Source: Heterotrichella gracilis
Taxonomy: Eukaryota; Sar; Xanthophyceae; Tribonematales; Xanthonemataceae
Reading direction: 5' to 3'
DNA length: 64,000 bases
Assembly: GCA_032358255.1 (NCBI GenBank)
Contig: JAULBX010016637.1
Span: forward strand, 248,001 to 312,000
The position numbers were made by a program, and so were the translations under genes. Each line of letters starts with the position of its first letter. Position 1 is the stretch's first letter. The notes below the pieces were generated by a model. The model searched no databases, was not told the DNA's origin, and was given only the letters and a program-made list of their open reading frames with translations. Below are positions 10,058-60,317 of this stretch, piece by piece.

Positions 10058-12878
10058 CTACCGCTCCTTGCTCAGCTCCAGCGTGACCTTGACAGCTATG
10101 TGGTCGCTAGGGTACAGCGTAGGGTCATGGGGGCTGGGCTGGTCCCCCCTCAGCTCCACAGCCAGCGGGCGGCAGCGGTACCCCGGCGCCTGCCACACGT
10201 ACACGTAGTCAAGGCACTCAAACTCGCCGTGCTCCGCCAGCGGCGCCTGGATGCCGGACGGCCACGTGCCCTGCATTGAGGAATTGAGGGTTAGGGTTAG
10301 GGTTTAGGGTTTGCACAGGCACAGCGGCACTTGCACGCATCACAGACGCCGAGCTGTCATGTGTCCTGGTTCGTGAGGGTAGGGCGGTATGGTCAGGGTT
10401 TAGGGTTTGCGTACATGCGTGAAAGAGCTCATCACGCTGCGCACATGCAGGTGGGAGGGGGAGCAAATCCTGCCCGTGATCCCAAGTTAGGACAATCATA
10501 AACAGAACTGTGCCTGCTCAAAGGTCCCTCTGCCACGAATCCATTGTAGTTCTCACTACTAATCCTCGTCACCCCACCTGCGGCTCGCTCCCCTTGAGCG
10601 CCCTGTGCGCAGACACGTAGCCCTGGGCGGCCAGCGCGCGGTGGAAGGGCTCGCTGGGACCCCCGTTGAGGTCCCCACACAGCACAATGGCAGCACACCC
10701 CTGCGTGGGGTGGGGATGATGATGGTGGGGATGAGGATGGGGATGCAGCTGTGAGGATGCACATGGCTGGTAGGGATTTATGTCCTCAAGCGGCACGAGC
10801 AGCATACGCGTGTGGTTGTGGATGTGGTTTGGGTCATGTTGTGATCTGGATGGTGATGGTGCTTTGAATAGTGCGGGGTTGCATTCGTGGATGTGTACGT
10901 GAAATTTAATGTGGGCGGTGTTGTGGAACAAACGACGACGTGTGTGGTGCAGCTCCCACCTTTTTCTCCGCCTCCATCCACCCGCACACCTCCAGCGCCT
11001 GGCGTTGGCGGTTGTCTGTGTGGTCGTGGTCCAGGTGGGTGTTCACCATCCACACGTTGTACTGGTCGGGGCCGTGGGGGATCTGGGGGAGTGGTGGGTG
11101 CGTAGTGGGGCGGCAAGGTTGCATGTGGCAGGGACAGGGGGTAGGGAGGATGCATGGTGGACCGGGGAACATGGAGGCAATGTGTATACCCAGCTAACCC
11201 TCAGTTGAGGGACCCTGCAGCCTGTAGTTGGCCACGCCCCCATCGCTCGCCGCACCATGTGATCATCCAAGCAAATGGGCTGCGCTTCCCCTAAACCCCA
11301 ACCCTGAACCCTAAACAGCTGGCCGTACCGTGACGCATATGCGTTGCGCTGCCCTGAAGTCCCCCAGCTCCAGCACCTCGTGGCGGAACTCGCGCGTGGC
11401 GTGCAGGCGGCTGGCAAGGGAGTTGCCGAAGAAGGGAACAATGCTCACATCCCTGGATAAGAAATAGAGGATTTGAAAAGGGGGAACAAGATGGCGCACA
11501 GCGCAGCATATATATTAATCCTGTTTAACATTTTGCCGCTGCATATGTTGTGGAAAGCTAACATGAAACTCATCATGGAAGCAGAAAGGTTCATCCGAGC
11601 CAGGAAATGCATTTTGTTATTTTACTTCTGTGTGCAGATTTTTGCAATAAAAACACTTGAACCCATGCACCAGCGGCAATGCACCCACCACCGATCCCGC
11701 TGAAACTCACCTGCACAAGCGCACAAAGCTGTTCTGTAACCGGTACCGCTCCCGGAAGGATTCAATCCAGACTGGCATCCTGATGGCCATGTACTGCGTG
11801 GCGCTGAAAAATAACACAAGCCTGTTAACGACAATTTGCAGACACATGGATATTTCATCAGATAAATGGAATATTTAAAATGTGCGGGCAACACACAGGA
11901 TGCATAAGACAAGGGCACAAGTGCCATGCCCCGCGGCGATAAAAAGCCACTCCCCAGATGTGGAGGAGTTAACAAACTACAGTTTCCGGTACATCTTGAG
12001 CCATCAACACTGCAGTCAGACACATATGCGGTGGGTTCCCCACCTGAATGATGCAGCTGTGAGGCAGGATTTGGCAAACCATGCCTTGGCGCCCCCCTCC
12101 TTAATGAGGTTGGCAATGGCTGCTCGGCAGGGGTGTATGTGGTACTCCTTACCCAGAAGCTGCCTGTCTTGACCGAATTCCCCTGTAGTTGAATCAGGGC
12201 AAACCTCAGTTGCTAGCTGTACACAGGCCAAGGTTACGGGTTTGCCATGCATGACTTGGGCAACATGTTCTCATAATTTGGCGGGAGAAGTTTCATTCCA
12301 GATCACACCGTAACCGTGCAGTTTCAGTGAAGTCGTGCGCGTTTAGCCACTAGCAACACGAAAGCTTATGCATGCATAGTGTAACATAGCCTAGCAGTGG
12401 TCCTCTTGGCAGGCCCCTCACCCGTCATGCACTCTTGAAAGAAGAAGACATCTGCGTCCATCTCCCCCACGCACTGCTTCAGCACCGGCGCCCGCTCGCT
12501 CCACCGGTCCATGATCGCCCGTATGTTGAACGTGGCCACAGAAAACGTGACCGCTGGCTTGACACCCATCGCTGTGCGTGGCTCGGTAGCCAGGCGCTTT
12601 GAACGCTTCCTCACATTGCCCCTCCACACCGAGAACGCAGTCAAGGCTGTCAACAGCAGCTGCTGGGAGAGGACAGACAGTGCGCTGAGCAGGTTGGTGG
12701 GGTGTTCATCAGGCAAGGCGATTGATAAGCTGCCTTGTAACGCCTTCCGGCTGGTTCGAGCTCTGTTGCTGACTGGGTTCCGCAGCGCCCTCGGTGCTTT
12801 GGTGCAGGGGACCCTCTTGGCCACCCGTGGTGCGCAATCGCTCGACCAGTCCACAGCAACGCCCCCAGGTAGGGGCAT
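10058..12878 (-). CDS. Endonuclease/exonuclease/phosphatase family protein
   Basis: Seven exons on the minus strand: 12878-12422, 12182-12044, 11803-11711, 11452-11329, 11082-10960, 10700-10578 and 10270-10058, giving 423 residues. All EEP (DNase I-like fold) catalytic elements are visible: VATFNIR (N118), FFFQE (E149), NTHLDHDHTD (N285, H287, H290), CGDLNGGP (D322, N324) and PSDHIAV (D409, H410). These bind a divalent metal and cleave phosphodiester or phosphomonoester bonds. The substrate is not evident; relatives include deadenylases, inositol phosphatases and AP endonucleases. The first 105 residues are basic with a hydrophobic stretch (LLLTALTAFSVW) before RKRSKR, which could be an organelle signal or membrane anchor. 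The ATG at 12878 is the first in the open exon; an internal start at M104 is possible. Confidence 0.85.
10283..10410. repeat. Telomere-like tract before an acceptor site
   Basis: GAGGGTTAGGGTTAGGGTTT and a second GGGTTTAGGGTTT near 10397-10408 lie in the last intron of the EEP gene. In the sense of the gene these read CCCTAAA/CCCTAA immediately before the acceptor at 10271. A matching TTTAGGG-sense tract (about 11290-11318) follows the donor of the exon ending at 11329. Confidence 0.75.
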
Positions 12879-14094
12879 TGCCGGAAGGTTGGGTGCCTTG
12901 TCGGCCGATCGTGCCCCGTGTGTGGTGCCTAGGCGAGTTTCTTGCGGTTGCTGTGGCTGGAATATTGTGGCATGTTGGGCACAAGTTTAGTAAGCATGCG
13001 GGGGGTTTCCAACGTTGATGTCAAGGGCTGATCGCTGTCCTGTACCACCGCCCAATAGAAATAGAGGTCCAGTTTCATGTCACCTGGACTACCTAGCACT
13101 CCGGTGAACGCTTTGCTATCCCCTTCTGCATCGGCATCTCGCCATTTATTCTCTCGGTGCATTTTGAAATGGGCCACATTTATGTGAACCCTCTCTAAGG
13201 GTTTTTGTTTTATTGCAAAATCTTCGAATGCACAGACAGCAGGGAAAGTGGATTTTGCAAAGCACGTAAAACCTTTTACTAAAGGTCGCATGTCAGTGCA
13301 ATTGAGTTGGTGCAAGCCCATACGAAGTAGTAGACAGGAGGGGCATCATCATGCCTTCATGAGTCATCTTTGCAACACCAGTCAGCCTCAAGCAGTCAGT
13401 GCAATGTTGCACTGGCAAGACGGAAACTTTGGCGATAAGAAAGAATATGAAAAGCTGTTGTCAACGGAGGAATGTACAAATAAATTGGTATTACCAGTTG
13501 GGCAGTGGGTAGTAATCACACCCAACAGATTGGAAAGAAAACAACACAAACGCCAACAGCAACTTGGCACTGAGGAGCTGATTTGCTGTCCCTGTAGCAA
13601 TCCCTCCGGTCACCAGGGGAGTGTGCAATCCCACCACCTGGAGTATCTCAGGCTACGCGGTGCGCTTTTCTTGGGCTGGTGCCGGGTGGGACCCAGGGGT
13701 GAAATGTGGTGGCATTACGACCTGCAGCACCATTGGCCATCATTTAGTCACCACCAGTAACCTCCATGCATTCCATGCATTCAAAGTATAACATGGATTT
13801 TAATAAATTAAAAACCAAGAGGAAAGCATTTTATAAGACTTTAAATTTTAATTTTCGATCACGATTTATTGTTTGTTGTTCAGTGTCATAATTATACTAT
13901 TAAAAAATGTGCACGATATGCATACTATGGAAGTGCTGCAGACAGTATGGTTAGTCTCACATGCATCCCAGAGTGCGCAGAGTCACTACCAAGCATCGAG
14001 GGTGGATGAAAATGCCCGAGAGTGGATCAAATGCCAATACCCTCACTGCAAGCAGAGGTTGAACCTACCGAAGTGTGCCGGCCGCCTGTGCACC
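12879..14094. other. Intergenic region between two minus-strand genes
   Basis: The region holds the promoter side of the EEP gene and the 3' side of the coiled-coil gene. It becomes AT-rich near 13780-13900. Open frames at 13248-13760 are unsupported by splice context or any recognised motif. No gene is called. Confidence 0.45.
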
Positions 14095-17000
14095 CTAAAC
14101 CTTAAAACAGTTGGACCCACCAGGGTGTGGCTGTGCGCCGCTCACCGGCGCATTCTCCTTGTCATTCCTGGCGCCTGTATCCCGGTGGCCTGCCGGCACA
14201 ACCTGCACGCTCTTGGGCTTGGGCTGCATCACTGTCACCGCCGGCCTGCGTGGCACCGGATGGCCTTGGTGAGGCTGGCCAAAGCGCTTCTTAGGAGGCT
14301 GCTGCTGGCTGCAACTGAGCTTTGCTTCCGTGACGGGCAAGGCGGTGCTGCGGGGCTCCTCCACCTCCTACAATGGAATGAAATCAGTCAATATGAGTGA
14401 ATATGAAAATAAATTAGACTGAATAATATATTAATAAATAAAAAAATGAAATTGACGAGTAATAATGTGTTTCTTTGCACGCAATTGCGTTGGTTGAAAG
14501 AGTGGCAGGTGGAAAGAAACCCAGCCTCAGAGGATTGCTATTTCCCTTCATGAATCCCTACCTCAACAGTCTGCATTGTTGGCAAGCCACAGCCTATGTT
14601 GTAACTAGTGATCTGACCCATCAGGCCTGCATTTTCAACTGGGTAGCCCATACAGGTGGTGGCAGAGTTCTGCCAGGGCTGCTGCGCGCTTGTGGGACAG
14701 CTGCTGCATTGCCACTGCGCCAATGCTGGTGCGGGTGGGTACTGGTACGTAGGGGCTGCGAGGAGTGCTGGTGGGTGCACGCTGAGCTGGCCGCTCTGCT
14801 CCGCCTGTGCTGCTCCAGAGCTCTCAACGGGGGAATGCCATGAGTCATGAGGCTCCATTGCTGGGCGGCCTTCTGCAAGCATTACCATCAATGGATTAGG
14901 GGCAAGCAAGCGTGCACCAAGGGTGACTTCATTGACAGAGGTTTGGGCATGTGGCACCTGGAGGAGGATGAAGTAATGGAATGTGTGCGATTGGTCTCTG
15001 TGGGTGAACCCTAATCGGGCTTGATGGTACTTTTACCAGAATGCTTGTGGCTGAAGTTGAATAGCAGGGCAAAATTGCGCAATGCAGTGCATCAAAAGAT
15101 AACTTATAAGTACCCTTAAACCCTACCTGGATGGTCTGGCAAAGCACGATCAATGCAAGCCTTGCGCTGCATGCTTTGCAGCCGCCACGTCAGCCACACG
15201 CGCTCAACCATGCGCCTGTCAGCCCACCGGTTGGTCCAGGCAGTCACGGCTGATGTGAAGTGTTCCCTACTGGCCTTCCCTTGCCGGGGCGGTGCCTACA
15301 GCCATGCAGCGTGGGTCACTTTTGCCACTGACCTACAACTACAACTACAACACTGTTGAACGCTTCCAAGCCAAGCACCGGCTGATGAGCGTCACATACT
15401 CCTTTGAGGGCATGGCGCGTGCATATCATCCACTGGGTACTCTGCGCCTACATGAAATGATGCTACTATTCATTATCACACTAAACTCGCCTATTTTAAT
15501 TGTTATCATTTTATTGTAGTAAAATAAACCGTGATTAGGGGTTGTAAGCAAAAATGGTTTTGTCTGCATATTATTTAGCAACTGCACCGTGCTACCTGCC
15601 TGCAGCTCACCTGCCTACCCAGCTCAGCACTGGCATGGCGCCACGCACCAAAGGCCGCACGCAGGGTCCTGACATCATCCCAACCGGCGCCCACCATCCA
15701 AACCAGCTGCATTGCCAACCGCCTTTGTCGCACTTTCGCTGCCAAGGTGCTTGGCGTGCGGCGCAATGCCCACAGCTGCGCTTTGAGCACAATGACTGCC
15801 CACCGAGCAGGAGCAGCACTGTCCAGTGCGGCTGCCCTCCAACACAGCATGCAACACCTGCAAAGGTGGCAAACCCCTGCATCTGAGGAGGTGGCAAACC
15901 CTAAACCGTAACTGGAACATCTGAGGAAATAATATGTTATAAGCAAAACAGCATGGATCACCTGTGACGACGGCAAACCCTACACCCTAAACGGCAGCAG
16001 GAACATCTGACCAGATGATAAACCCTCGATGCTGTAGTTGAGATTCTTGTGCTACAGCTGATTACGGGCATTGAGCACCTGAGGAGATGGCCATCCGCCC
16101 TGTGCGCCATCCTCCCCACCACCCCACCAGCTGCCATTGCCCTGGAGCGCTGTGCCAACACATCATCGCCATCACTGTCACCAGCGAGCTGAGTTTGCAG
16201 GGCAAATATCCTCCAATGGCTGAAGTGCTTGCTGAGGAGGTGGAGGGTGTGGTGGGCAACCCTGTGGCTGAGCACTCGGTCAATATAGATGTTCCTGGCC
16301 TCGGTCCACAGGTCGTACTGCTCGTGGAAAGCCTCCTTGGCCTTTCGGGCCTGCGCTTTGCAGTAGGTCTGTGCAAGCAGTGCTTGGCGATCCTGCAAAA
16401 TGGAGTGGATGATTTTGGGGTGGCGCAGATTCACTGCAGGTGTCCATGGACCAAAAGGTGGCATGGCCCTGCACAATTCAACTGTGGCGCCACTTGCCAA
16501 ATGATTATCTCAGAACTACAAAAATTGCATGTTACCAGCACATGTTCGTATGACATCAAGACCTCGTTTGAGAGTAGAATTTTGAGCATTACCTGCAGCT
16601 GCTGCCTCTGCACGTCAGCTACCAATCGCAATGCTTCGTCTAGCTCTGCATAGTTCACTGCCTTCAGCTGCTCAACATGATGCTTCAACTCATCCCTGTT
16701 GACATCCACGCAATTTTGTACTAAATTACAGCAGAATTGAATCATGAACAGAGAACTTGCGATTTCTGAGATCTCGGAATCAGTGGTTCAATGTGATTTT
16801 ACAGTGACCCTGCAATTTTGGCTGTATAATACGGTGCCCTGGGATTGTGAAACAGGTGCTTCACTGTGCAACAGAATTTTTAGGTTATATAAGCATACCT
16901 TGTAGCCCGCAGCGCAGCAGCGTCATGCCTCAGCTGCTGCACTTTTTCCTTTTCCTGGCCCAGCTGGTGCTTGTCTTGCTGCAACTGCGCCACCAGCTGC

Positions 17001-19059
17001 GATTGCTCATTCAGCCTACACCCAGTAATAATTTGATCAATAGATAAACATGCATGCCACCTGCCTTTAACAGCATCTGCAGGAAGAAAAGGGGTTTACC
17101 CTCCTTGTTTACTATGTCCCCTAGTCACGCAGCATGTAGGTGGGGACTGGCAAGTAAGCAGTCGTTGCCGTAGTCACAACAACCTGTGTGCTCCGCTGGG
17201 ATGAATGCACCAGCAATGGCCAAGCGCTGTGCACTCCTGTCCTAGACAAGCCGCTGCCAAGTACAGCCCCCTAGGTAGTTGACCCAGTACCGCACCTTGA
17301 TTGCAGGAACTCGACCTCATCTTTCAGTGACGAGACCACTGTGTCTGTTCGAGAGCAGTGGAAGAATGCGCTCCCAGACGTGTCACCTCCATTCAGGGCC
17401 TGGAGCTCCATGTTTTGCAACGAGACTGCCCTGTGGCCAGCCTGAGCTTTTTGGAAGTCATCAACCAAGGTCGCAACCTGAACAATATTTGCGCTTATTT
17501 TTTAATAATATATTTATGTATTTATTTTTCTGATGCATCCTGTGCCTATTGGTCCGAGCATGCATCCTCCCTTTTTGTATGTCAATCACCATCAAGCCTT
17601 AACTGAAGCTTAAGGTAGCTACAGCAGTCCTTGCCTGCAAGCAGTTGTAGAGCCTGAAAAGAGGCAAGCGCACATCACCACGACAAAACGCTGCAAAACA
17701 AGCACAGTACCTGTGCCTCCCTCGCAGCAAGTATGCCAGCCAGCTCGCTCTGCTTCTTCAGCGTCGCATCCTTGTCTGCTTCAGAGCGCTGCAGGGACTG
17801 TTTCAGCTGGCTCAGCCTGCCCTCCCAGGCTGCACACGCCTCCTTGTGCGTGTGGCTGGTCAGCGTGGCATGCTCCTTTGCAGCTGCAACCTGTGCCCCC
17901 AGAAAGGTTGCCTTCTCCTGCAGTGGGCGTGGTGCCGCTATGGGTCTTGCTGTTTAGGGTTTTGGAAGGCCGGATTGGGGTTTCAGGGGTTTAGGGTTTG
18001 CCTTCTTCTCGAGTGTGTGTAGTACCCCTGTTCTTAGAGTATACGGTATATCACTGGGCTTGCGCGCAGTGTAAAGAAGGGTTCCTCAGCAAAACAGTTC
18101 TGCGGTGCGCACTGGGTGGACACTTACGAATAAACCCTAAACCCTTCTCACACCTGCCACTTCACGCTGACACTGTGCAGGCTGTCCACCCGCTGGCGCA
18201 GCTTGCCGCACTCCTTCTCCCTGATGTGCAGCTGGGATGCCAGCCGTTCTGCGTTGTACTTCAGGGCGCTGTGCTTGTCTTGCAGCTGGGAGAGGCTCCC
18301 TTGGCAGGCCCGCATCGCCTCCTGGAGCTGGCGAGCCTGGCGGACGAAGCCAGCCTGCGGAAGGGTATTCTTGCTAGGGTATGGCAGGGCACTGGCAGGT
18401 GAAGTTGGACTATTGGATGGCAAAGCCTTATAGGTGGGTTGAGGAGCACTAGAAAGGGATGGGCACTGGTGGAATGGCAAGAGTGGATGCCAGAGCACAA
18501 GCACTGGTGTTCGCAAAGCTTTTAGGGATAGTAGGCATTTTTTTAGGACAGAGCCTTTGTGGTTTAAAGGGAATAAAAGGGTGGTAGGACACTAGTGGAA
18601 CGGTACCAGTGGGGAATGCAGGTGACAGTGCATGCATATCGGTCTGTTCGAGAACTGCAGCCGACAGGTTCCGCTTCCAAACCACAAATAATACCTTCAT
18701 CTGCAGTTGCCTCCATCTGTGAAAACTCGAGGCAGTTGAGAGGATAATCTGCAGGGTTTCCTGCGCAGTCAACGCGGGAAGCGGGAGTGAGGATGGCAGC
18801 ACAGCTAGACATGCACAAGGTCTCTGTGCTTATGTAAGACTCTGCAAGCGATTAAACAGCACCTAGTACGGGTTCGCTGCATCTGGTGTACGGTGATTCA
18901 GTACAAACCCTATACCTGACCCTGCCCGGCATGGAGTGGAATGCCCTGTCGAGCAGGGTCCAGGCCAGTGCACACCTGTTCTTGCGTCAGCGTAGAGCAA
19001 GCTGTATATGAGCTGGGCGTGCAGCAGGCTGCTCCATCGTCTACTGAACCTTCTACCAT
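14095..19059 (-). CDS. Coiled-coil protein with Sfi1-like Trp repeats
   Basis: Exons on the minus strand: 19059-18976, 18760-18695, 18354-18154, 17917-17711, 17477-17296, 17015-16899, 16695-16593, 16392-16079, 15857-15611, 15295-15127, 14872-14562 and 14367-14095. They sum to about 757 residues with consistent phases. After a short N-terminus come long heptad regions (RQARQLQEAM, LSQLKQSLQRSEAD, LVAQLQQDKHQLGQEKEKV). The C-terminal half has spaced tryptophan modules (HFSHWRIFALQ, AFGAWRHAS, VWLTWRLQSMQRKA), resembling the centrin-binding repeats of Sfi1. One such module (FHRWRQLQ) is near the N-terminus. A centrosome, basal-body or cytoskeletal linker is the likely role, by inference. Uncertain points: whether exon 2 reads on into FVVWKRNLSAAV, a possible tiny exon near 17600-17655, and whether the last exon splices at 14150 instead of ending at TAG. 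Confidence 0.7.
15858..16090 (-). repeat. Exon-end copies with telomere-like spacers
   Basis: The exon ending at 16079 has the plus-strand sequence GCACCTGAGGAGATGG. Degenerate copies (CATCTGAGGAGGTGG, CATCTGAGGA, CATCTGACCAGATG) recur at about 15879, 15919 and 16003 in the following intron. They are separated by CAAACCCTAAACC and CAAACCCTACACCCTAAAC. Confidence 0.6.
17945..18148. repeat. Intron with inverted telomere-like ends
   Basis: The intron 18153-17918 of the coiled-coil gene has TTTAGGG (sense) 11 bases after its donor, read from the plus-strand AAACCCTAAACCC at about 18132-18145. Before its acceptor it has CCCTAAACCCC and AAAACCCTAAAC (plus-strand 17951-17998). It is the clearest single intron carrying both tracts in opposite orientation. 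Confidence 0.75.
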
Positions 19060-30128: not shown

Positions 30129-31188
30129 GATCACTGGTGTAGCGGTGCAAGTTGGAAGGCACTGGATCCACGTCGATGTGTACAGAGGACAACTGGGTCA
30201 GTACGAAGAGGTTGTGGACTGTCTGTTGCATGCAACTGTCGCTGTGTCGGTTATGTAGCAGCCCTCCAGTTTGTAGCGTGCACAAGTTACGTAGACAACG
30301 CCCACGAAGGTTTTGGTTCTTACGTGGTTTACGCAAAAACGTAAAAGGTCACGGGGCCCCACGGGACACATGTTTTGGCGGGAAACTGCTTGAAAAATAA
30401 AGGTTTGAAGATTTTAAAAATCTTTCAATTTTGGGGTTTCCATTTATTCTCATTCCCAGCCCACATTATGAGTCACCCACGGGACTGTTGCCAGCTCCCA
30501 GTGTTACAAACAACAGGGAGGAGTGCCCCCCGAGACAGGGTTTGATATGGCAGTTCGCGTACAAGCTCATGACACTACATGCGTGCCGCTGGCAAGCTGT
30601 GCGTGCCTGTTCTGTCCAAAGACCCCACCAAACTGCAACGCAGGATCATGCCAAACACTACCATGTACCCTAGACCCCAAGTAGTTCGTACTCCAAAAAT
30701 CGGTGCACAATCTGATATGCAAACCACGAAGACTCAGTGAAGTGCGGTGCGATACCTAGAGAAAAGAAACAAAAACAAACGCCAAAGGCGTAAACTAGGC
30801 GGCATAGCAACGACGCATAGCCCCCATGGAAACCTAATTGCATTGCAAGTAAGGCAGAGAGGGAAGATATGCATCTACAAAAAATTGCAGCAGAGGCCGG
30901 CGTACCACCTTGGCGGTCGGTACAGTCTTCAAGCCTCTCAAAACACAAAAGTGCAAGAGCCCCACAGCCACATGTGACATGTCACTGTACAGGCCATCCT
31001 TCCCCCCCTTCATCAATAAACATACGAGCAGGGTTCCAAAAACTGCGATGGCCACACGAAATGTAGTTCCAGCACACCCCAAACGTCAAAACCCTAAACC
31101 CTCCGGCAAAACCCTGCACACCAAACCCTAACGCCCCCACCTGCCGCCGGTAGTCCCGCACACACCTTCAACCCTAAACCCTAACGGG
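30129..31188. other. Intergenic region between heme protein and ABC1 kinase
   Basis: Promoter side of the heme-protein gene followed by the 3' side of the kinase gene. From about 31090 it is telomere-like (CAAAACCCTAAACCCTCC, CAAACCCTAACGCCCCC). No gene is supported. Confidence 0.5.
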
Positions 31189-49017: not shown

Positions 49018-49763
49018 GAGTCGCCATGCAGTCTTTCCCGCTGTGCGTCCATGTCAGTAACTAGTGGACAGTGCACACCACTCAGCTTAGCCTGTGGCAG
49101 GGTTTGGCCAGGTTGGCCATTTTCGTCGACAGCAGGATGCTTTTGGTCAATGGCAGGATGTTTCTGGGCACTAGGGGGTACAGCTGAGGTGGCTCGGGTT
49201 TACGCTTGGTCAGCTGAGTGTGCATGGCACCACGCAAGTTCAAACAACTCATTGTATTATTGTTCACTAGAGCCGGGCTTTTCCAGCTTGTTGAGAAAGA
49301 TCGACTCGCACTACTTTGGATTGCAAGCTTCAGCACCGGACACAATCTGGCCAGTGTACCAGTACACAGGTGATCGTCTCCATTGTTACCATGTTCATGA
49401 GCATAACAGGGTTTATCCTCGCAGCAGGGAGTGCATCAGGGTAAATATGAATGATACACCAGTTGTTTGAGAAGCGCTGTGCCTAAATGGCAGTTTTTCA
49501 GCTCTGGGCAATGCTCAATCCACTATACTTTTCCATCATAGCGTCTGCTCAAGCACTCATGAAATGTTGTCGCTCAGCGACGCATCTGGTATGCCTCAAA
49601 ATAACTTCTGCGCATATCCCCCCACGTGCTCCCTTCTTAGCCGCTGCACCGCCTCCTCATGGAACAAGCCCGCCCACAGCGCCCCCACCTTGAACCCCCT
49701 GCAAGCGTGTCTTCCCGCCTGTGTAGGGTTTAGTGTTTGGGGCACCCTACACCCTAAACATGG
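49018..49763. other. Intergenic region
   Basis: Between the broken plus-strand locus and the 3' end of the MYND gene. A telomere-like GTAGGGTTTAGTGTTTGGGG with CCCTACACCCTAAAC (49722-49759) abuts the MYND stop codon. No gene is supported. Confidence 0.5.
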
Positions 49764-52700
49764 TCAATCCACCTCCATGAGCCCACTGGGCCTCGCCCCA
49801 GGCCACCCCTCAGGCGTGGGTGGTGGCTGCGGGTGCCCAGCCTTGAGCTGAGCATCCAACGCCTGCTTCAAGGCTTCCTCCTGGGGCTTGCCCTCCCACA
49901 GAGCCACCTTGTACCGCTGCACAAAGTCCAGACCCTTGAGGGGCAGGCGGGGCCCGGCGGAGTCCTGCAAGGGGGGCAAAAGGGGGGAGGTGTAAAGAGT
50001 GCTCGGATCAAGCGGAAAAAAGAGCTGCGCTCACTTGCAAAGGAGGATGTTTTCTGAAATGTAAACCTGATTTTCAGAGGAGGCTATGGGGAGGGGAGGC
50101 GGGTGAAAGGGAAGAGGAGGGGAGGGAGAGGCGGCGGCGAGAGGGGGGTTTACCACGTCCAGACCCTAAACTCCAAACCCTACACCCTCCCACAGCGGTG
50201 CCTTGAAGCGCTGCATAGGGTCTAGCTATGCAGAGGGGCAGGATGCATATCTCCCGGGGTGTGGACAGGGGAAGGTGTGCATAGGTGTGGGGAGGGTCAC
50301 TCACGTGCACACACACCACATGACCGATGTGCCATTGACAAACCGTACACAGGGTTTTATGGCAATGAACTGACCCTCCCCAGGGCTTTGTGGCTATAAA
50401 TGAATCCTAGTAAAGGTATTAAGCGCACCTGCACCAGCACTGGTGGGCTCTGCTTCTTTTCCTTGATTGCTGCGCAGCCCCCCTTGTGCCTCCTCCACGC
50501 CTTGGTCTGGCACTCCTTGCTGCAGTAGGACGCCACGTGGCAGCGCGAGCACTTGGACAGGGGGAGAGAGGACTCGCTGGGGCCTGCGGGAAGGGAGGGA
50601 AGAGGCAAGGGTTTAACTAGGGTATTGACGCACCACTTGGCTTGGCTGTGTGAGAATGAAGTAAGGTTTGGTATAGCAATAGTAATAGTTATGATGCTGG
50701 TGATTTTGGTTATGACACCCACCCCTCCCTGCAGCGCCAAGCAAGTTGGGTCTGAACACAGACCCCACCCCGCCCCCCACCCAAAACCGCTCCCTTACCC
50801 TGCAGGTTGGAACAGTACGCGTAGCAGCAGCCCATGCACGAGGTCTCCACCCGCATCACCTCCACCTCCCCGTCTGAGGCGGGAATGGCTGTCTCCCCTT
50901 GGCGCTGGGCCACTGCCACGTTGGCCGCCAGGGCCTGCATAGGGGGGAAAGGAGGGGGCTGGCAAACATAGTTGGTTAATAGTTGCATGCATTCCAGCAA
51001 TACAGCCAGATGTGCAGCGAGTCTTGCACATGCGGCCCCAAGCACATCTGTCTTCGCAATGTTTGAACCACCGCGACTAGCAAACACGCAGATGCTTGAC
51101 TTGCTACCAACGTGCACGTCTCCAATGTATCAAAATCGCCCCTGCTGGGTAAGGAGGAGAGGAAATCTAAGAAACGCCATTGGGGAGGGATCCCGCCCTT
51201 TCCACCAGCGCCTCCACCCTCCCACCCCTCCACCCCAACCACCCACCATGTGCTGTCTCGCCAGCCCCTCCCACACCCCCGCCTCCTCCAGCGCCTCCAA
51301 CACCGCCAGCGCACTGCCCTCATCCACCGCAACCAGGCGGGACAGCGCACGGGCAAACTGGGAAGAAAACGACGGGCCCTGGGGAGAGGGTGGTTCCGCT
51401 TGCAAAATGATTATCATCATATTCATAGCAATCATCACATTCATAGCAATCATGACCTCATCCGCAGCAACCAGGCGGGACAGGCCCAGCTGGAATCGAT
51501 AAGAAAACGACGGGCCCTGGGAAAACCCAGTCTCGCGTTCAGGTACAGTCGACATGGGCACTTGAAGCTTTCCCACGCACACAAGCAGCATACGCAGTAT
51601 GATGGACATGGGCTTCCGCATGAGTGCAAGCGGTACATGCAGTAATGGCACAAGTGGAATTTGGGTTATGTTTCAAGGTTTAGGGTTTACGGTTTAGGTT
51701 TTAGGGTTTAGGTGGAGCCAGGTACTGCAGTAGTGGTACAGGTGAATTTGGTTAGGGTCAAGGATGGGTATATGTGCTGCAGTGCCAGTGCAAACAAAGT
51801 CATGTGTATGCAGTATCTGCAGGTGGAGCCAGGGGGGAGCAAGGTGGAGCAAACATGCCGCATGCCAGCCCCAAGCACGACTCCACATACACCAACCGCA
51901 TCGATATCCACACCAACCCCCCATCCCCCATCCCCACAAAGCACACCAGGCCCTGCACGCCACCCCCCCCCCCCACACAAACACCGCACCTCCCCATCCC
52001 CGTTTCCCTCCCCCAGCAGCTGCACTGCTGTTGCCAGCATGCGAGGCGTCCCCGCCCCACACAGCGCGCCATTGGAGCCAGGATCTAGCTGCAGCGACCA
52101 CAGGCAGCACAGCGACAGGCTGCGTACAAGCTGCAGGTTGGGGTTTAGGGTTAGGGTTTAGGGTTTAGGGTCAAGCAGCAGGGCTGGCATGCAGGACAGC
52201 AACAGGCTGCGCACAAGCTGCAGAAAAGATTGATTCCTGGTTAGGTTTGCTGTAGCTTTCTGGTTAGCCTCCAGGTGTTTCGTTGGTGTAGGCTCTTGCT
52301 TTGTAATCGTTGTGGCTGTTGTAGGGTTTTGTGGGGTTAGGTTTAGGGTTCACCGCCAGGCTGCGCACCAGCTGCAGGAGGGGTCCATAGGTCTAAATTG
52401 CAACAAAAATCTTCAGAGATATATGCTAAACAATTCACACGTGCGGACCAGGCGCACCAAGAGCAAAGCACACCACTTGGTGTGGGTGGCCCCCTTCCCC
52501 CCGCCTTCAACACACGCCACATCCCCACCTGTAGCTGCGCAGCCCGAGTCTTGCGGTCCCTGTCGCCCTCCCCTCGCGCACCCCCATTCTTCCCCCCCTT
52601 GGTCCCCCCGCTTGCCTCCAGGTGGAGCGACAACTGGCTCAGCACAGGCAGCAGGCGCAGCGTGAGGCCAATCAGTGCCCTGCCAACGGCCAGGCCAATC

Positions 52701-55700
52701 AGTGCTCTGCTCAGGGCCAGGCTAATTACTGTATGACCCATCACTGCTCAGGTACAGGAGCAGGCGCTGGGACAGGCCAATCAGTGCACAGCGTAGCGCC
52801 AGGCCAATCAAGCCGCAAGTAGCAGGCGCAGGGGCAGACCAATCAGTGTCCTGCACAGCGCCAGGCAAACCATTGTCCTGCCAACCAGCGGCTCAGGGCA
52901 ATCAGCTCCCGAAATCCCAAACCCTAAACCCTACAGCGCACCACCCTGAATCCTAAACCCTGAACAACCCTAAACCCTGCAGCGCACAAACCTGAACCCC
53001 AAACCCTTGATAACCTGAAACCCTGCAGCGCATCACCCTGAAGTCTGAACCCTCCAGTCCCCTCCATTCTAGACCCTACAGCGCACCCCACCTCGCCACG
53101 TGCGGCGACCCCACCTCTGCCGCGCGTTCCACTCTTGCCCCCACCAGAGGCTCCGCCATCTCTGCCAGTGCCCCCAACGCACCAGGGTTGCCCACGTGGC
53201 ACACCACCATCTTGGTCCATGTGAGTGCTAGGCTGTGCGCCTGGACCCCGTAGGGCGCCTGGCACAGGAGGCCGGGACCAGACCCTCGTAGGGTTTCCAT
53301 GTGCGCTACCAGCGTGGCGATGTGGTTTAGGAGCTGGGAGGCGGCTTCAGGGGACATGCTGCGGCAAGGGGTGGTGTGTGGGTGAGGTTGAGGGTTCAGG
53401 GATCAGAGTTTTAGGGTTTAGTGTTTCCATAAGGAGGGAGACGCTTACCAAACGCAACCACATAGCCCGCCTCCGGCCACCGACGCCACTAGGCATAGCC
53501 CCCCCCAAGATGCCCACCTACCCCCCACACGGTGCTGTCATCCGCATGCCCCCCACACACCTCTCTGTCATGCGCATGCACGCCTCCAGAGCTTCCAGCA
53601 AGCCCCCCCGCAGGGCCGCCCGCGCAGCGTCCTCTGGACGAATGGACTGCGCAACCCCAGCGTGGGTGTTGGGTGCAGTGAACAGGGCCAGCAGGGTGGC
53701 CAGCATGTGTGCCATGTGCTCACTGATCCGGCCCAGGACGGTGGGCAGGTTGAGGGCCTGCGGGTTGGGGTGTTAGGGTCAAGGTGAGGATGTTTAGGGT
53801 CTATATTAGGGTGTTTAAGGTCTAGGTTAAGCGAGCTTGGTGTTGTGCGGCCCTCGGTGGCTTGGTGGGTGGGTGACCAAGGTGATGCACCGCGCATTGT
53901 GATAGCTGAGGCCTTGCTGGGAGACCCACCTGGGTCTTCAATGCATGAGCATGGTGACCCAGCCAAGGGTTTAGGGTTTAGGAATCCAGCCGTGCACGAT
54001 GTTTCAGCCGAGGTTGAACCAAACCCAAAGGGCTCAATTTTGAGCATTGGCACTTCCGGTCCCATGCACACGCATCCCAGGTGGCAGAATTCCTCAGGCG
54101 AGTCACACTCACAGCCACCCCGGCCCAACCCTGATCCCAAACCCTAAACCCTACCTCTTTAGGGTCTCCTTGGGCCTGCTTGATGTACTTGTCGGCCACC
54201 TGGTGCAGCTGGAACAGCAGCGCGGGCAGGGCGCAATGCCAGGGGTAGCTGCAATGCGAGGGAATTAACACCGTGGGGACCCCTGGGCACACTGAAAAGG
54301 GCGTGGGCAGGGTAGGGCACAGTGCTAGGGGTACCTGCAATTTGGGCGATTTGCCGGACCTGTACAGAGACCCTGGTGGCAGCACAGAGGACCCCTCCTA
54401 CGCCATTAAAAGGCACAATTACAATAACATTCATTACGATTAAAATTACAGTTGCAATTGCAATTGTAATCACCTGCGCCAGCATCCCACCCCCCACCCC
54501 CCACCTCCACCCCCCACCGTCTCCACCCCCACCTGGCATTCACGCTCCTGGTCTGTGTCAGCAGCGCAGGCCCTGCTGTAGGGTTCTGCACCAGCTGCGC
54601 CATGATGTCACCCAAGTGGGGCGCCGTGCCCTCGGGGCGATTCACAGACCCCGCCAGGGCAACCAGAAACCCTAGGGCGTCGGCCAGGTCGGGGTGGGTC
54701 CAGTGGCGGCTGCAGGGGTGGGGGGTGGGGGATGAGGTGTGGGGGGTTGTGGGTATGATGGGCGGGGGCACAACGCCAGGGCGTGGGGTGTGTGTGGGGG
54801 GTTTCAGAGGCGGCTGCGGTGGGGGTGTGGGGGTCTGGGTACGAGCTTGCAGGGGCATAAAAAATGCAGCTGGCAAGTATTGGAAAACATTCCCCACTGC
54901 TTTGGCTCATGACTGTGACCCCTTCTCTCCCTCTCCCCTCCCCCACTGCCCCAGCGCCACCCTAAACCCTTAACCCTACACCCACCAGTTGTCGGGGTGG
55001 TCCTGCAGCAGCTGATCGCACAGCGACACCAGCGGCATCAGCTGCAGCGCACCATCCTGCCCCCCCTCAAGCTCCAGGTGGCGGGAGAAGGAGACAAGCC
55101 AGCTGATGGCCGCATCCTGCGCACACAGGGTGTAGGATTTAGGGTTTTGAGTGTAGGGAGAAGGATACAAGCCATTTCATGGCCGCCTCCTGCGCGCATA
55201 GAGTGTAGGGTTTAGGGGATTTGGGGGTTTTTGGGGCCCTAGGGTTCTGAATGTACGGAGAAGGAGGCAAGCCATGATGGAGATCCTGCACTTGTGTGTG
55301 GACACCCCCACCCATCCACCCACCCACCTGCAGCTCCCTCCACACCGGCTTCAACCGCTTCAGCACCGCCCTGTTCTCAAGCCCGCCGATGCGATCCTGC
55401 CCCCCCCCCTTGCGCCCCAGCGCCGCCGCCACCGCCTCCATCCTCACCACATGCTTGTAGTTGAGGAACACGGTGCGCAGGCCGCGCAGCTCCACTGCGC
55501 TCCCCTGGGTTGCTGGTGGCAGGGAGGGAGAGGGGGGGTAATCAAAGGGGAGGTAGAGAGGAAGAGGGGAGGAAATGGGGTAGGGGGGGTGGAGAGGGAA
55601 CGAGGCACCCCAGGCTGGCCTTGTTTGGGGTTTGAGCGAACGGGGTTTTGTATTTGCATGGCGGGCGGATGCGTTTTGTCCCAGGGGTGGGCCATGCGCC

Positions 55701-58060
55701 ACAGAGCAAGGATCACAGGAGGGGCCCTCTCGGATCAGCACCCACCCACCCCTCCCCTCCCCACTACCCTTAATCCCCTCCCACACCACTCACCTACAGC
55801 TACCCTGACCGCTAACCCTAGACAAACCCTACAACCCAAATCCGTACCCCCTCCTCCCCACTCACCGACGGCCACCCTGAACAGCGCACCCCAGGCCACT
55901 ACACCCTAAACCCTAAACTCCTCACCCTACTCACCTACGGCCACCCTGGACAGCGTGCCCATGGCCGCTCCATCCTAAACCATAGACAAACCCTAAGGCC
56001 TAAACCCCAACCCCTACTCACCTACTCACCTACAGCCACCCTGAACAGGGTGCCCATGGCTAAGTGGAAGTCGCTGTCGCCCACTGCAGCCCTGGCCACA
56101 GGTGCGGACCAATCCAGGGCGCCAGCGCCTCCCTTGGAGGGGTGTGGGGCGGAATCTATCTGGCCCACCGCCACCATGACCACCATGACGTTCAGGCGCA
56201 GCAGCCACACCAGCATCTGCACGCACAAAACAGCAGAAATGTTTCAAAGCTTGGAGTAAACAAATGGCGTACATGGATTACCTGAAATAAACATTGAAAA
56301 ACATCAAAGCTTGACTTGAATACGTAGGGTCGTATGTTTTCTACTTTTTTTCTGAATTTTATTTACAGTATTGCGCAGCGGCTGCGTAGAGAAGGGCAGC
56401 GCTCTCTGCTGGACTTTGGGGCTTAGCAGCTGCGCATGCGTACCTGTGTTTAGGGTTTGGAACCTAAGGTTTGGGGATTTGTGCCTCGTGGCTGTGCGTA
56501 TGTACCTGTTTGGGTGCAGAAGGGGCCCCCACGTGGTCCATGAGGGCCATCTCCCCCGCTGCCTCCCCTTCACCCAGCCTGTGCAGGACCAGCAGCGCCT
56601 CCACTATCCCCGACACAAAGCAATAGAACTTGCCTGCAAATAGCTGCCTGCGGCAAGAGGTAGGTGAGGTGGCGTTAAGCTTTGGCAAGGCAGGGGTACG
56701 TAGGCATGATGGCCGTTGTTTGGTGCCTGAAATGCCCAACCATCCTACCCACCCAACCCCTACCCATAGGTGCATGAAGAAACCCTAAAACCTAGACCCC
56801 TGCCCATAGGTGGATGAAGAAGCAACAAGACACCCACAGGTGGATGCTATAGTACACATATGATACATTAAAATAATAGACGATGCAGTGTTGAATAACA
56901 CCCACACCACAAACCCCTGGTCAATGGCAGGTTGGGGCACAAGACCCCCGAGATCAAACAGAACCCCAGCAGAAATAAGACTTTACAAGCCTTTTTCGAT
57001 TAACACCAGAAGGCTGCGCGCAGTGGCCACCCAAGCCCCTCCACTCACTTTGCAAAGGCAGCGTGCTGCTCCTGCTTGGCAATGCCCACGGGCTCCAGCT
57101 TCCCATACTTGGCAAAGGCAGCTCTAATGGAAAAAACCCTAAAACCCTAGACCCTTATTCCACTCACTTTGCAAAGGCAGCGTGCTGCTCCTGCTTGGCA
57201 ATGCCCACGGGCTCCAGCTTCCCGATGGCTGTTTGCCGGGTAGCAAAGGGCAGGCACGCGAGGAGCGCCACCTGGTTGAGGGCCCTGACCAGCGCTGGGC
57301 GGGCCTGTGGGTCCCTCTCAAGCTGCTTCGTCAGGGATTCCCAGTCCATGCGGTTCAGCAGGCCACACAGCCTGGTGAGGCTCTTGTCCCTGGAGGACAC
57401 CCACTGTGTTTAGAGGGCACCACAGGCTTATGATGCAACAACAACGTGTTTAGAGGGTGCCACAGGCTCACCAGGTGTGTGGGTTTAGAGGGTGCCACCG
57501 GCTTCTGAACCACAAGGTATGATGCAACACAGTATTTAGAGGCAAACCACAGCCGTATGATGCACCAACAGCTTGTGGGTTTAGAGGGACCCATTGCCCC
57601 GCAGAGGCCGCTCACAGCCCACCAAGATGACACCACAGGGCATGGGCTGGTGTTCCACAGGCTTCACGACAGAAGGCAAGCAGCAACGCACTTGGTGCGA
57701 GATTCCAAAGCTATAACTGAATACCCATCCCGTATAATATCCGCAACAGGGGCACGTTGGTGCAGAGGGCAAGGACCAGGGTGCGTACTTGGCCATGGTG
57801 TCCATGAGCTGGTAGGCTTCGGCCTCGGTGGCGTGCAGGACGAGCCTGTCGTCGGCTTTCTTGATGAGCGGCACGGCCACATCTTGGAACTGGTTTAGCT
57901 GGGCCACCAGGTGGGGTTTGCTGGTGATGGAGAGGAACGAGACCCCCCCTTTGGGACTAGTGCCTTCCGGGAAGGCTTTGTCAAGGAGCTGAGTGGTACT
58001 CACGATGGCCGTGTGAAGCCCCGCCAAAGCCAGAGGTTCACTAGGGGGTGAGGGCTTCAT
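49764..58060 (-). CDS. Large helical protein with C-terminal MYND zinc finger, full copy
   Basis: Sixteen exons on the minus strand: 58060-57789, 57389-57168, 56647-56506, 56216-56034, 55504-55328, 55116-54986, 54709-54533, 54248-54155, 53757-53561, 53358-53092, 52679-52529, 52130-51990, 51357-51247, 50934-50799, 50583-50429 and 49964-49764, giving 918 residues with phases closing. The MYND finger spans the intron between exons 14 and 15: CMGC (788-791), CSRC (812-815), YCSKEC (821, 825) and HKGGC (H833, C837). MYND fingers bind proline-rich partners. The remainder is Leu/Ala-rich helix without a recognised domain, so the function is unknown. The start MKPS is conserved in the neighbouring copy. 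At 56034 the GTAGGT donor was preferred over GTGAGT four bases on because only it keeps phase. Introns carry many exon-boundary copies. Confidence 0.82.
51456..51520 (-). repeat. Copy of exon-13 acceptor end
   Basis: GCAACCAGGCGGGACAGGCCC and AAGAAAACGACGGGCCCTGG reproduce the exon 13 start with its intron border at 51328-51382. The gap between matching blocks is filled by a duplicated ATTCATAGCAATCATCACAT-type stretch (51410-51455). Confidence 0.75.
51668..51715. repeat. Telomere-like tract
   Basis: AGGTTTAGGGTTTACGG, TTTAGGTTTTAGGGTTTAGG: seven-base telomere-type units in the intron between exons 12 and 13 of the MYND gene, reading CCCTAAA in gene sense. Confidence 0.8.
52131..52390 (-). 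repeat. Exon-12 acceptor copies with telomere-like tract
   Basis: Directly before exon 12 is GGGTTTAGGGTTAGGGTTTA (plus strand). Beyond it, two diverged copies of the exon start and acceptor (CAGGCTGCGCACAAGCTGCAG at about 52205 and CAGGCTGCGCACCAGCTGCAG at about 52357) compare with CAGGCTGCGTACAAGCTGCAG at the real exon. Confidence 0.85.
52655..52910 (-). repeat. Tandem copies of exon-11 start
   Basis: The plus-strand unit AGGCCAATCAGTGC(C/T)CTGC occurs seven or more times at 25-45 base spacing (about 52666, 52690, 52715, 52773, 52801, 52837, 52864). The first belongs to the acceptor side of exon 11; the rest fill the intron. Confidence 0.85.
52912..53095 (-). repeat. Exon-10 donor copies with telomere-like spacers
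   Basis: The donor border of exon 10 (CTACAGCGCACCCCACCT) is repeated four times (about 52931, 52978, 53025 and 53077), separated by CCTGAATCCTAAACCC, CCTAAACCCTGCAG and similar. Sense orientation is TTTAGGG downstream of the donor. Confidence 0.85.
53380..53425. repeat. Telomere-like tract before exon 10
   Basis: GAGGGTTCAGGGATCAGAG and TTTTAGGGTTTAGTG follow the acceptor of exon 10 in plus coordinates, i.e. CCCTAAA before the acceptor in sense. Confidence 0.7.
54136..54345 (-). repeat. Telomeric donor and exon-8 start copy
   Basis: The donor of exon 8 is itself within a telomere-like run: sense GTAGGGTTTAGGGTTTGGG starting at 54154. On the other side, the exon 8 start with its acceptor (GCCAGGGGTAGCTGCAATGC, 54238-54257) has a copy at 54325-54345 (GCTAGGGGTACCTGCAATTT). 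Confidence 0.8.
55079..55290 (-). repeat. Three copies of the exon-6 start
   Basis: GAGAAGGAGACAAGCCAGCTG (real exon, 55086) recurs as GAGAAGGATACAAGCCATTTC (55160) and GAGAAGGAGGCAAGCCATGAT (55258), each with its acceptor region (CATCCTGC, CCTCCTGC, GATCCTGC). Spacers are telomere-like (GTGTAGGATTTAGGGTTTTG, GTGTAGGGTTTAGGGG). Confidence 0.9.
55787..56062 (-). repeat. Four copies of the exon-4 end
   Basis: CACCTACAGCCACCCTGAACAG (real exon border, about 56028, allowing 20 of 22 bases) recurs diverged at about 55790, 55864 and 55930. Spacers include TAAACCCTAAACTCC and AAACCCTAAGGCCTAAACCCC, reading TTTAGGG after the donor. Confidence 0.9.
56428..56470 (-). repeat. Copy of exon-3 donor
   Basis: GCATGCG/TACCTGTGTTT with TTTAGGGTTTGG copies the exon 3 donor border (GTGCGTATGTACCTGTTTGG, 56494-56513). 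Here the telomere-like unit reads CCCTAAA in sense, an exception to the usual orientation. Confidence 0.55.
57041..57155 (-). repeat. Copy of exon-2 end plus telomere-like spacer
   Basis: 57041-57104 repeats 57160-57223 (exon 2 donor end) without a change over more than 60 bases, offset 119. The spacer contains AAAACCCTAAAACCCTAG. Perfect identity means this duplication is recent. Confidence 0.92.
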
Positions 58061-59210: not shown

Positions 59211-59835
59211 GCTGAGCGCGGTACCTGCTTGTGTGTGTGGAGGGGCTGCACGTGGACCAGCAGCCCCCCCTCCCCCACCCCTTCCTTGTACCCCAGCTTG
59301 AGCAGTGCCAACAGCACATCCACAATGCCCGCCACGTGGCAGTAGAACCTGGCCTGGAACATGACCCTGTGGCAGGCAGTCCCAGTGTCAGTGCGACACA
59401 ATGCTACCAACCCTGTACCCAGCAAGGGCGTGTCATGCAATATGAAGTGACCTGCGTTGTCATGTGATTAGTCCAATTACTACATGGCCTTGACAAGGGG
59501 ACTGCCCATTTACTCCTGCATACTGCATACCTGCAGTTCAACCCTATTTGCCTAGGGCGAAACTCCTGAGATGGCGTGCCCAATCCACCGTGACAGGCTT
59601 GTGACACTACATGCTAAGACTTGTACCCAACAGGGCGTGTGACACTACATGCTAAGGGACCTTGTACCCAACGGGGGTGTATCGAAGGGACACCGCCGCG
59701 ACGCCCTGTTGGGTGGCAGTTGGTGTGCGATAACCACGCAAAAAGGGCCCATCACCTAGTGGTTGGGTGCCGAAGCAGTTCTCCCCATCACCACCTTTAC
59801 AACCCTGGCCAGGCCAACCAAGAGGCGCTCCTGGG

Positions 59836-60110
59836 TCACCCTAAACCCTTAACCTTAAACCCTGAACCCAAACCCTACCTGTTCAGTCCAGCGAGCTGCT
59901 CCTGGATCACTCTAAACCCTAATCTCTAAACCCCAAACCCTACCTGCTCAGTCCAGCGACCGGCTCCTGCCGCGCAACCTCCACCTTAAACCCTACGTAA
60001 TCAGTACAGCGAGCTGCTCCCGCTGCCCCACGATAAACCCTAAACCCTTCCCCCATAACCCTACCTGACCAGTCCAGCGACCGGCTCCTTGTGCGCAACT
60101 TCCACCGTGT
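59836..60110 (-). repeat. Four copies of partial gene's exon-2 end
   Basis: The border CTGACCAGTCCAGCGACCGG (60065 onward) recurs as CTGTTCAGTCCAGCGAGCTG (59879), CTGCTCAGTCCAGCGACCGG (59944) and AATCAGTACAGCGAGCTG (59999). Spacers are telomere-like (CCCTAATCTCTAAACCCC, CGATAAACCCTAAACCC), TTTAGGG in sense after the donor. Confidence 0.92.
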
Positions 60111-60317
60111 TGGCCTTCCCGTAGGCTGTGTGGTGGGCCGCAAAGGGCAAGCATGCCATGAGCGCCACCTGGTTGAAGGTCCTCACCAGTCCCGGGCGGG
60201 CCTTGGGGTCCCTCTCGAGCTCCCTCACCAGGCCAGGCCAGTCCACGCGGTTCAGCAGGGCACGCAGCCGGGACAGAGTTCCATCCCTGGGAGGTAGGGA
60301 ACAAAAGCATGGTTAGG

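Follow-up and report, generated by a model that had tools for sequence, protein, structure and literature searches.

Telomere-repeat tracts at intron ends of the alga Heterotrichella gracilis are mostly directed away from the exon and often lie between direct repeats

The 64,000-nucleotide stretch of DNA analysed here (the window) covers positions 248001-312000 of contig C167 in the genome assembly of the xanthophyte alga Heterotrichella gracilis, which comprises 68.5 Mb in 903 contigs. Introns predicted in the window carry short tracts of the telomere-like repeat TTTAGGG, or of its complement CCCTAAA, close to their ends, and an earlier reading made from the letters alone (the sequence-only reading) had proposed that these tracts mostly read TTTAGGG after donor sites and CCCTAAA before acceptor sites in gene sense. 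We predicted genes in a sample of 234 kb, consisting of the window, DNA adjoining it and DNA from other contigs (190 kb fetched, contig C100 excluded), using a small hidden Markov model which was trained on the sample itself. Contig C100 was kept out of both training and counts; its positions 20001-40000 show a GC content of 0.36 vs. 0.55-0.57 in the other sampled contigs and might be organellar or foreign. The model yielded 27 genes with 440 introns and the consensus sequences CAG/GTGGGT at donors and TGCAG/G at acceptors (the slash marks the splice site). Genes with fewer than 300 coding bases were dropped before counting, 42 micro-exons shorter than 15 nt were merged for some counts, leaving 397 introns, and dropping the introns less than 100 bp from a sample end reduced the 440 introns to 434. 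Six of the seven window proteins joined across introns matched Pfam families, namely ABC1 (E 1.5e-45), HODM-like (E 4.8e-50, with two duplicated peptides excluded by hand beforehand), MYND finger, 2Fe-2S, HAD and Mpo1-like, and one of the seven gave no Pfam match. This independent model placed 14 of the 15 donors named in the sequence-only reading at exactly the same base, with 56033 lying four bases from the model donor at 56029, and all 11 named acceptors agreed as well, being one base off only by the convention of giving the first exon base or the last intron base. The window introns with tracts near their ends are as follows, with plus values counted from the donor and minus values from the acceptor.

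1972..2111, plus strand, intron of a plus-strand gene with TTTAGGG at +31
5730..6004, plus strand, intron of a plus-strand gene with TTTAGGG at +42
8971..10061, minus strand, intron with TTTAGGG at +48 from the donor
10271..10577, minus strand, intron with CCCTAAA 39 bases before the acceptor
11083..11328, minus strand, intron with TTTAGGG at +14 and +34 from the donor
12929..14120, minus strand, intron with TTTAGGG at +22 from the donor
17918..18153, minus strand, intron with tracts at both ends, TTTAGGG at +13 and CCCTAAA at -79 and -42
28117..28630, minus strand, intron with TTTAGGG at +13 from the donor
28808..28888, minus strand, predicted intron with CCCTAAA 25 bases before the acceptor
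30063..31286, minus strand, intron with TTTAGGG at +27 from the donor
35901..36023, minus strand, intron with CCCTAAA at -76 and -69
40581..40924, minus strand, intron with CCCTAAA 16 bases before the acceptor
41164..41452, minus strand, intron with CCCTAAA 75 bases before the acceptor
49719..49772, minus strand, predicted short intron with TTTAGGG at +15
49965..50183, minus strand, intron with TTTAGGG at +14 from the donor
52131..52353, minus strand, intron with CCCTAAA at -40, -33 and -20
53359..53560, minus strand, intron with CCCTAAA 58 bases before the acceptor
53758..54154, minus strand, intron with tracts at both ends, TTTAGGG at +7 and CCCTAAA at -42
54710..54985, minus strand, intron with TTTAGGG at +20 from the donor
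55117..55327, minus strand, intron with CCCTAAA 28 bases before the acceptor
56648..57167, minus strand, intron with TTTAGGG at +25 from the donor
59367..60064, minus strand, intron with TTTAGGG at +21, followed by tandem copies of exon edge and tract (59870-60106)
60287..60660, minus strand, intron with CCCTAAA at -76, -62, -55 and -42

The distance of the tracts from the splice site is variable, and because the plus-strand intron 1972..2111 carries TTTAGGG at +31, their direction follows the gene and not the genome strand. In the sample, the first 60 bases of introns of at least 200 bases contained 1.76 TTTAGGG and 0.88 CCCTAAA per kb and the last 60 bases 0.11 and 1.71 per kb. The corresponding values were 0.29 and 0.35 per kb in intron middles, 0.00 and 0.02 per kb in exons (none and one in 66 kb) and 0.14 and 0.07 per kb in the small intergenic sample (four and two in 27.8 kb); four control 7-mers, two of which were the reversed motif, stayed at 0-0.22 per kb in all classes. 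Counted over the 346 introns of at least 120 bases among the 397, the ratio of TTTAGGG to CCCTAAA was 37:20 in the first and 4:35 in the last 60 bases, versus 19:24 in the middles of introns of at least 220 bases. Outside the window alone, it was 23:13 at donors, 0:24 at acceptors and 6:14 in middles. The direction rule is strict at acceptors and only about 2:1 at donors, where TTTAGGG is indeed the majority direction and the exceptions which that reading had listed are in keeping with the weaker ratio. It had suggested scoring the motif by strand against intron interiors and intergenic DNA; the strand bias was present and the intergenic density low, the latter in a small sample. As a control for circularity, all telomere words were scrambled, the model was retrained from its seed and the original motifs were counted, which gave ratios of 33/17 at donors, 3/35 at acceptors and 18/26 in middles, versus 32/16, 2/31 and 18/22 before, with 360 introns being identical between the sets of 440 and 435.

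The repeat is also abundant as multi-unit arrays throughout the assembly. (TTTAGGG)2 was found at 2845 + 2784 places on the two strands versus 2 + 3 for the reversed pattern, and (TTTAGGG)3 at 406 + 428 = 834 places versus none, where both counts include overlapping registers and the three-unit count also includes terminal arrays. From the three-unit tracts, we assembled a blind set of 40 one-kb stretches in list order and irrespective of genes. It represents the first 48 distinct listed tracts minus eight, of which C2:4499 was already in hand, two were in the sample (C3), C2:441466 was near a chosen tract, and C7:1989, C26:130114, C26:131834 and C28:10938 were omitted to limit the number of stretches. 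The tract was directed away from the coding side in 27 of the 40 stretches and towards it in 6, with 7 being undecided (p=3e-4). Where the nearest exon was at most 100 bp away, 14 tracts followed a donor and 11 preceded an acceptor in the expected direction, and 3 + 3 were oriented the wrong way. The location of the tracts at intron ends and their direction are therefore real and extend past the window, and a simpler rule than the distinction of donors and acceptors describes them: the tract is directed away from the exon.

TTTAGGG is the true telomere repeat of this genome, so the tracts consist of the organism's own terminal repeat: contigs C70, C140, C526, C609, C717, C770 and C824 open, after only 4-7 bases, with (TTTAGGG)5 arrays in telomere orientation. 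The RNA-binding domain of telomerase reverse transcriptase (TERT) is also present (E 4.8e-13). A psaD gene was located on contig C17, whose product gave 9vfj_D (a 698-residue chain, with three matched stretches) as the best photosystem I match and 6igz_D and 6zzx_D, from the green algae Bryopsis and Chlorella, as further ones; this contig is nuclear, because (TTTAGGG)3 tracts are also found on it. For rbcL, no match was obtained in the assembly.

The key feature of the tracts, absent from the sequence-only reading, is that they often lie between two copies of a direct repeat, an arrangement which we call a sandwich. Candidate duplications in the sample were dropped if they were shorter than 25 bp, consisted of more than 25% telomere words or were of low complexity (333 raw pairs, 247 retained). 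Requiring a spacer of 8-150 bp and no overlap with a better pair left 100. The examples in the window are the following.

33228..33346, minus strand, donor-side sandwich of exon edge with donor 33318 (33312-33346), tract with TTTAGGG units in gene sense (33263-33311) and diverged intronic copy (33228-33262); copies of 35 bp, 91.4% identical
57029..57223, minus strand, donor-side sandwich of exon edge with donor (57144-57223), tract with adjoining bases (57105-57143) and intronic copy (57029-57104); copies of 80 bp, 92.5% identical
52101..52223, minus strand, acceptor-side sandwich of intronic copy (52188-52223), CCCTAAA tract (52137-52187) and acceptor with exon edge (52101-52136); copies of 36 bp, 88.9% identical
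9960..10090, minus strand, donor-side sandwich with a degenerate TTTAGGG/TTAGGG tract (10000-10050) between copies 10051-10090 and 9960-9999; copies of 40 bp, 77.5% identical
32621..32833, minus strand, donor-side duplication with telomere-like spacer, exon copy 32786-32833 and intronic copy 32621-32669; 49 bp, 77.6% identical
55140..55275, minus strand, acceptor-proximal duplicated unit with a CCCTAAA tract between two intronic copies; 36 bp, 86% identical
28765..28998, minus strand, duplicated exon edge (copies 28765-28890 and 28870-28998; 129 bp, 76% identical), with a CCCTAAA tract preceding acceptor 28807/28808 and both copies called exonic by the model

Flanking direct repeats with a score of at least 18 were present at 18 of the 40 blind tracts, versus 0.3% of shuffled flank pairs. 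Their copies were of variable length (27-120 bp), and in 11 of the 18 cases, as judged by eye, they extended over a predicted exon edge and the splice site belonging to it; at the cleanest loci, L040 and L044, copies of 27-29 bp with 90-93% identity abutted a telomere repeat of 22-24 bp. Of 225 tracts in the sample, 65 had flanking repeats; the controls were random intron positions (23 of 206), splice ends without a tract (66 of 656) and shuffled flanks (2 of 225). With the same score threshold, copies of the adjacent upstream exon were found in 57 and of the downstream exon in 56 of the 434 introns (controls 0 and 0), and they coincided with a tract at the same intron end (odds ratios of 3.3, p=3e-4, and 3.0, p=1e-3, respectively) more strongly than with one at the other end (2.0-2.1, p=0.03-0.04). 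The 100 spacers between copies (7.7 kb) contained 25 of the telomere 7-mers, versus a mean of 8.7 and a maximum of 24 in 2000 random intron placements, and TTAGGG was their top-ranked 6-mer; the outer flanks of the copies, with 11 7-mers in twice the length, were not enriched. Where one copy of a sample pair was exonic, the tract was directed away from it in 16 of 18 cases. In two comparisons of paralogues with 80-86% identity, the difference consisted of the tract or of the tract plus a copy. Regions ~56500-58100 and 59200-61200 of the window are two tandem paralogous units of one gene region, with the MYND finger just upstream in the model, and their homologous introns (donors 57167 and 60064) show different tract-plus-duplication events: the tract and copy of sandwich 57029..57223 have no counterpart in the intron behind donor 60064, which contains other tracts.

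Telomere identity, the TERT domain and the long and variable duplications together match the insertion of telomere repeats at staggered breaks that has been inferred in mammals. On balance, we favour as the probable explanation that the tracts are short interstitial telomere insertions which occurred with tandem duplication during the repair of staggered breaks, and that the surviving ones are spliced out. Such an event would start with a staggered break near an exon-intron boundary, to the 3' end of which telomerase, or another process using telomere sequence, would add a few TTTAGGG units. Filling in both ends and joining them would then produce the order copy-tract-copy, i.e., a tandem duplication of the size seen in the blind set (27-120 bp). 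Of the events in coding DNA, mostly those that include a splice site would survive, because the outer splice site would still be used and the tract and one copy removed as intron. The intronic copy would subsequently decay, and some sandwiches would expand into small tandem arrays. The last base of perfect runs of at least 14 bases (n=118) fell within the T block in 88 cases and the first base in 48; such uneven run ends would fit directional synthesis, but variant repeats may partly account for them.

Several observations weigh against this explanation. No gene is predicted near four of the 18 blind sandwiches, and the identity of the copies is uncorrelated with the purity of the tract (rho -0.04, n=34). 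In 10 of the 18, there is another tract beyond the copies, no more than 40 bp away and at a matching offset by eye in 7 of these 10, and a third copy is visible at L052, L066 and L067; where outer tracts occur, the tract may predate the duplication of the unit. These further tracts and third copies mean that existing units are duplicated as well, and either order of events may apply at these loci. As for a possible primer microhomology, the tract run overlaps one copy (copy A) in register at 3 of the 18 blind loci, and at 3 of the 5 loci where the tract directly abuts a copy; bases in register at the break end have been reported for 75-77% of cases in rat and mouse (PMC2246262). Other local duplications are likewise somewhat biased towards intron edges (46% within 60 bp, versus 33% of random intron bases), and near exon edges, outward tracts are in five- to sixfold excess, for which a uniform insertion rate does not account.

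Some of the same observations speak for a reversed order, in which a tract near a splice site was present first and, being fragile or prone to slippage, led to a later tandem duplication of exon edge and tract. The outer tracts with their matching offsets, the missing correlation between copy identity and tract purity and the minisatellite-like arrays with telomere words at 46623-46717, 52920-53053 and 59870-60106 all agree with it. Yet the tract is found between the copies only in 24 of 28 telomere-spaced sample pairs (an outer tract being present in the other 4) and at 8 of the 18 blind loci, the outer flanks are not enriched, and the tract would still need an origin; we therefore regard this order as unlikely to be the general one. 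The arrays at 46623-46717 and 52920-53053 both contain 46-bp minisatellites in which CCCTAAACCCT pieces are combined with GCGCACCACC pieces; tandem repeats of another type can therefore carry telomere-like words as well.

The tracts could also be splicing signals only, with TTTAGGG acting as a G-run enhancer at donors and CCCTAAA as a pyrimidine- or branch-type element at acceptors, both built or kept by selection and with no insertion involved. Intron ends are generally G-rich after donors (GGGGGG 57 vs. 7.1 expected, GGGTGG 72 vs. 12.2) and C-rich before acceptors (CCCACC 105 vs. 16.6), where the telomere words form one class among several of this kind. Before acceptors, hardly any motif runs in the wrong direction (2 vs. 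31). The G- and C-rich composition of intron ends is independent of the tracts, as 184 tract-free introns showed a G-C skew of +0.114 after donors and -0.165 before acceptors. On the other side, the tracts are tandem multi-unit arrays (834 three-unit places vs. none reversed), they often lie between direct repeats, which selection on a single motif does not predict, and the donor consensus is similar in tract-bearing and tract-free introns. These facts make an origin by selection alone improbable.

Selection may nevertheless have contributed to the direction of the inserted tracts, which could be caused by seeding on the G-rich outward strand, by damage to splicing in the opposite orientation, or by both. 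Since the sense strand on the donor side and the antisense strand on the acceptor side are G-rich, the outward 3' strand is G-rich at both intron ends and might preferentially be extended. TTTAGGG is preceded by 30 bp that are richer in G than the 30 bp following it, also where the tract is more than 120 bp away from exons (0.162 vs. 0.041, p=0.001, n=39). The sequence closest to these distant tracts speaks against seeding: within 5 bp no skew difference is left (0.067 vs. 0.087), within 10 bp it lacks significance (p=0.14), and the preceding base is a G in only 5 of 39 cases; decayed repeats in the flanks could cause the remaining difference. As for selection, TTTAGGG holds the acceptor-like TTTAG/GG and is almost absent before acceptors; CCCTAAA contains neither AG nor GT, and we propose that it suits the C-rich acceptor region. 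Seeding and selection both fit the direction. The similar bias in young three-unit tracts (27:6) and in all 7-mers at intron ends (63:18) suggests that the direction was set at or soon after insertion.

The sequence-only reading had offered two further ideas, both resting on introns with tracts at either end, such as 17918..18153 and 53758..54154. Introns of this kind do not form a class of their own, as 5 of the 397 introns carried 7-mers at both ends versus 3.3 expected, and 6 carried 6-mers versus 6.6. The first idea was that the tracts are the scar of an intron-inserting element with inverted repeats, i.e., an introner derived from a non-autonomous DNA transposon with telomere-like termini. 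It was right as to the kind of event, a scar, and failed as to the element: the TTTAGGG and CCCTAAA found at opposite ends of those five introns are near chance expectation, the tracts have no fixed position at intron termini, and the flanking repeats are long and variable (27-120 bp) and not of the 3-9 bp reported for target duplications (PMC9860276). The 434 sample introns also contain no intron families; only nine intron-intron matches were found, of which three came from one repeat in three window introns, five were between neighbouring or paralogous introns and one linked two contigs. We rejected an intron-making element for the lack of families in the sample and the chance frequency of both-end tracts, and consider it highly improbable. 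The repeat in three window introns (~47233-47530, 58230-58737 and 61239-61627; 300-400 bp, 74-91% identity, same genomic orientation) is probably a transposable element, and comparison with its relative at 47.2-47.5 kb ruled out that the TTAGGG at 58574 inside it is an insertion. The second idea, that complementary tracts pair in the pre-mRNA and bring donor and acceptor ends together to aid splicing, seems hardly credible as a general explanation: although the donor TTTAGGG of 17918-18153 pairs with a downstream CCCTAAA over 7/7 bases in the predicted fold, the energy of this fold is ordinary (z -1.1, 29/200 shuffles as good), the donor tract of 53758-54154 pairs over 5/7 bases near the 3' end with other sequence than CCCTAAA in a predicted fold moderately below shuffles (z -2.2, 3/100 as good), and the tracts at the two ends are independent, with most tract-bearing introns having only one. 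Healing of both break ends by telomere addition with subsequent fusion was also rejected, as TTAGGG followed by CCCTAA within 60 bp occurred in only three cases, versus four in the opposite order, and 106 of 113 close motif pairs were in the same orientation.

Duplications are not confined to the tracts, and local direct duplications of at least 25 bp are very common (247 pairs in the 234 kb sample, which also yielded 328 local matches in inverted orientation). Among the non-overlapping ones, 81 of 109 spacers are without a telomere word, and break repair with tandem duplication and filler sequence may be general in this alga. Just past the window, a unit of ~103 bp recurs with 98-99% identity until the contig ends (C167:312112-312408), which is probably the reason why the contig stops there.

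Insertion of telomere repeats at breaks might even be a leading source of new intron sequence, enlarging introns from their edges, deciding which of the duplicated splice sites is used and sometimes making one, with telomerase as an engine of intron evolution; we regard this extension as possible and rather doubtful. At blind locus L045, the predicted donor lies at the edge of the tract and outside the copied exon stretch. Donor and acceptor contexts were alike (score of at least 18) in 20 of the 434 introns versus 1 in the control; several of the 20 hinge on predicted micro-exons or on duplicate copies called exons. Clean de novo introns, in which the intron length equals the duplication shift, were not demonstrated among the 434 introns, in a test clouded by micro-exons. 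If the insertion of telomere repeats at staggered breaks is true, splicing would have channelled break repair with telomere repeats into intron ends on perhaps thousands of occasions (5,629 two-unit places, overlapping registers counted), with each event leaving a tract as a directional marker. Two questions would become testable in one organism, the role of telomerase in ordinary double-strand-break repair and the effect of interstitial repeats on splicing.

The closest known counterparts are the short interstitial telomeric sequences of mammals, which were inserted at double-strand breaks (PMC7215372, PMC2246262). As in the alga, short internal runs of the organism's own telomere repeat are involved, some with target duplication, which is reported for 3 of 66 horse loci, where it is attributed to staggered breaks, 6 of 130 rodent and 4 of 25 primate loci (PMC7215372, PMC2246262). 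Whereas the duplications are thus a minority in mammals (about 5-16%), they flank 18 of 40 three-unit tracts here, and whereas human interstitial telomeric sequences occur in introns at the frequency expected at random (PMC7215372, PMC2246262), the algal tracts are packed against exon edges with a direction set by the exon. They may thus be understood, by analogy, as an extreme, splice-sorted form of the mammalian insertions, and the horse study already called the effect of intronic telomeric repeats on splicing interesting to test (PMC7215372). Plant telo boxes also represent telomere units spread through a genome, for which telomerase acting on free 3' ends has been proposed as the source (PMC3022908). 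Unlike the algal tracts at intron ends, those of Arabidopsis and rice are enriched in 5' UTRs (untranslated regions) and not in introns overall (in Arabidopsis 150.7/Mb in introns vs. 155.2/Mb genome-wide, with more in the first two introns), and the text of that study contains neither "splic" nor "orientation" (PMC3022908). Telomere repeats oriented at splice sites were not described in the titles and beginnings of abstracts among the literature matches listed, a coverage outside of which most subscription journals lie.

Intron gain via tandem duplication of coding sequence is known from Drosophila (PMC2891723), where, as here, a (proto-)splice site is duplicated together with the exonic sequence around it and one of the two copies ends up within an intron; in the alga, telomere repeats separate the copies and the events mostly enlarge existing introns. 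Direct repeats near splice sites have been compared across intron classes between the two borders of one intron, within 40 bp (PMC11782384), whereas the repeats described here flank a telomere tract at one border; "telomer" occurs twice in that paper, at least once in a reference on telomerase. Introners, finally, have been found in algae among others, and those with transposon signatures show 3-9 bp target duplications (PMC9860276); "telomer" is absent from the text of that paper. They share with the algal tracts that one kind of sequence is recurrently inserted in association with introns, but the introns form no families in our sample, and the tracts have no fixed termini, come with long and variable duplications and consist of the telomere repeat itself. 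If true, the insertion of telomere repeats at staggered breaks would provide a concrete route of intron growth which is distinct from introners.

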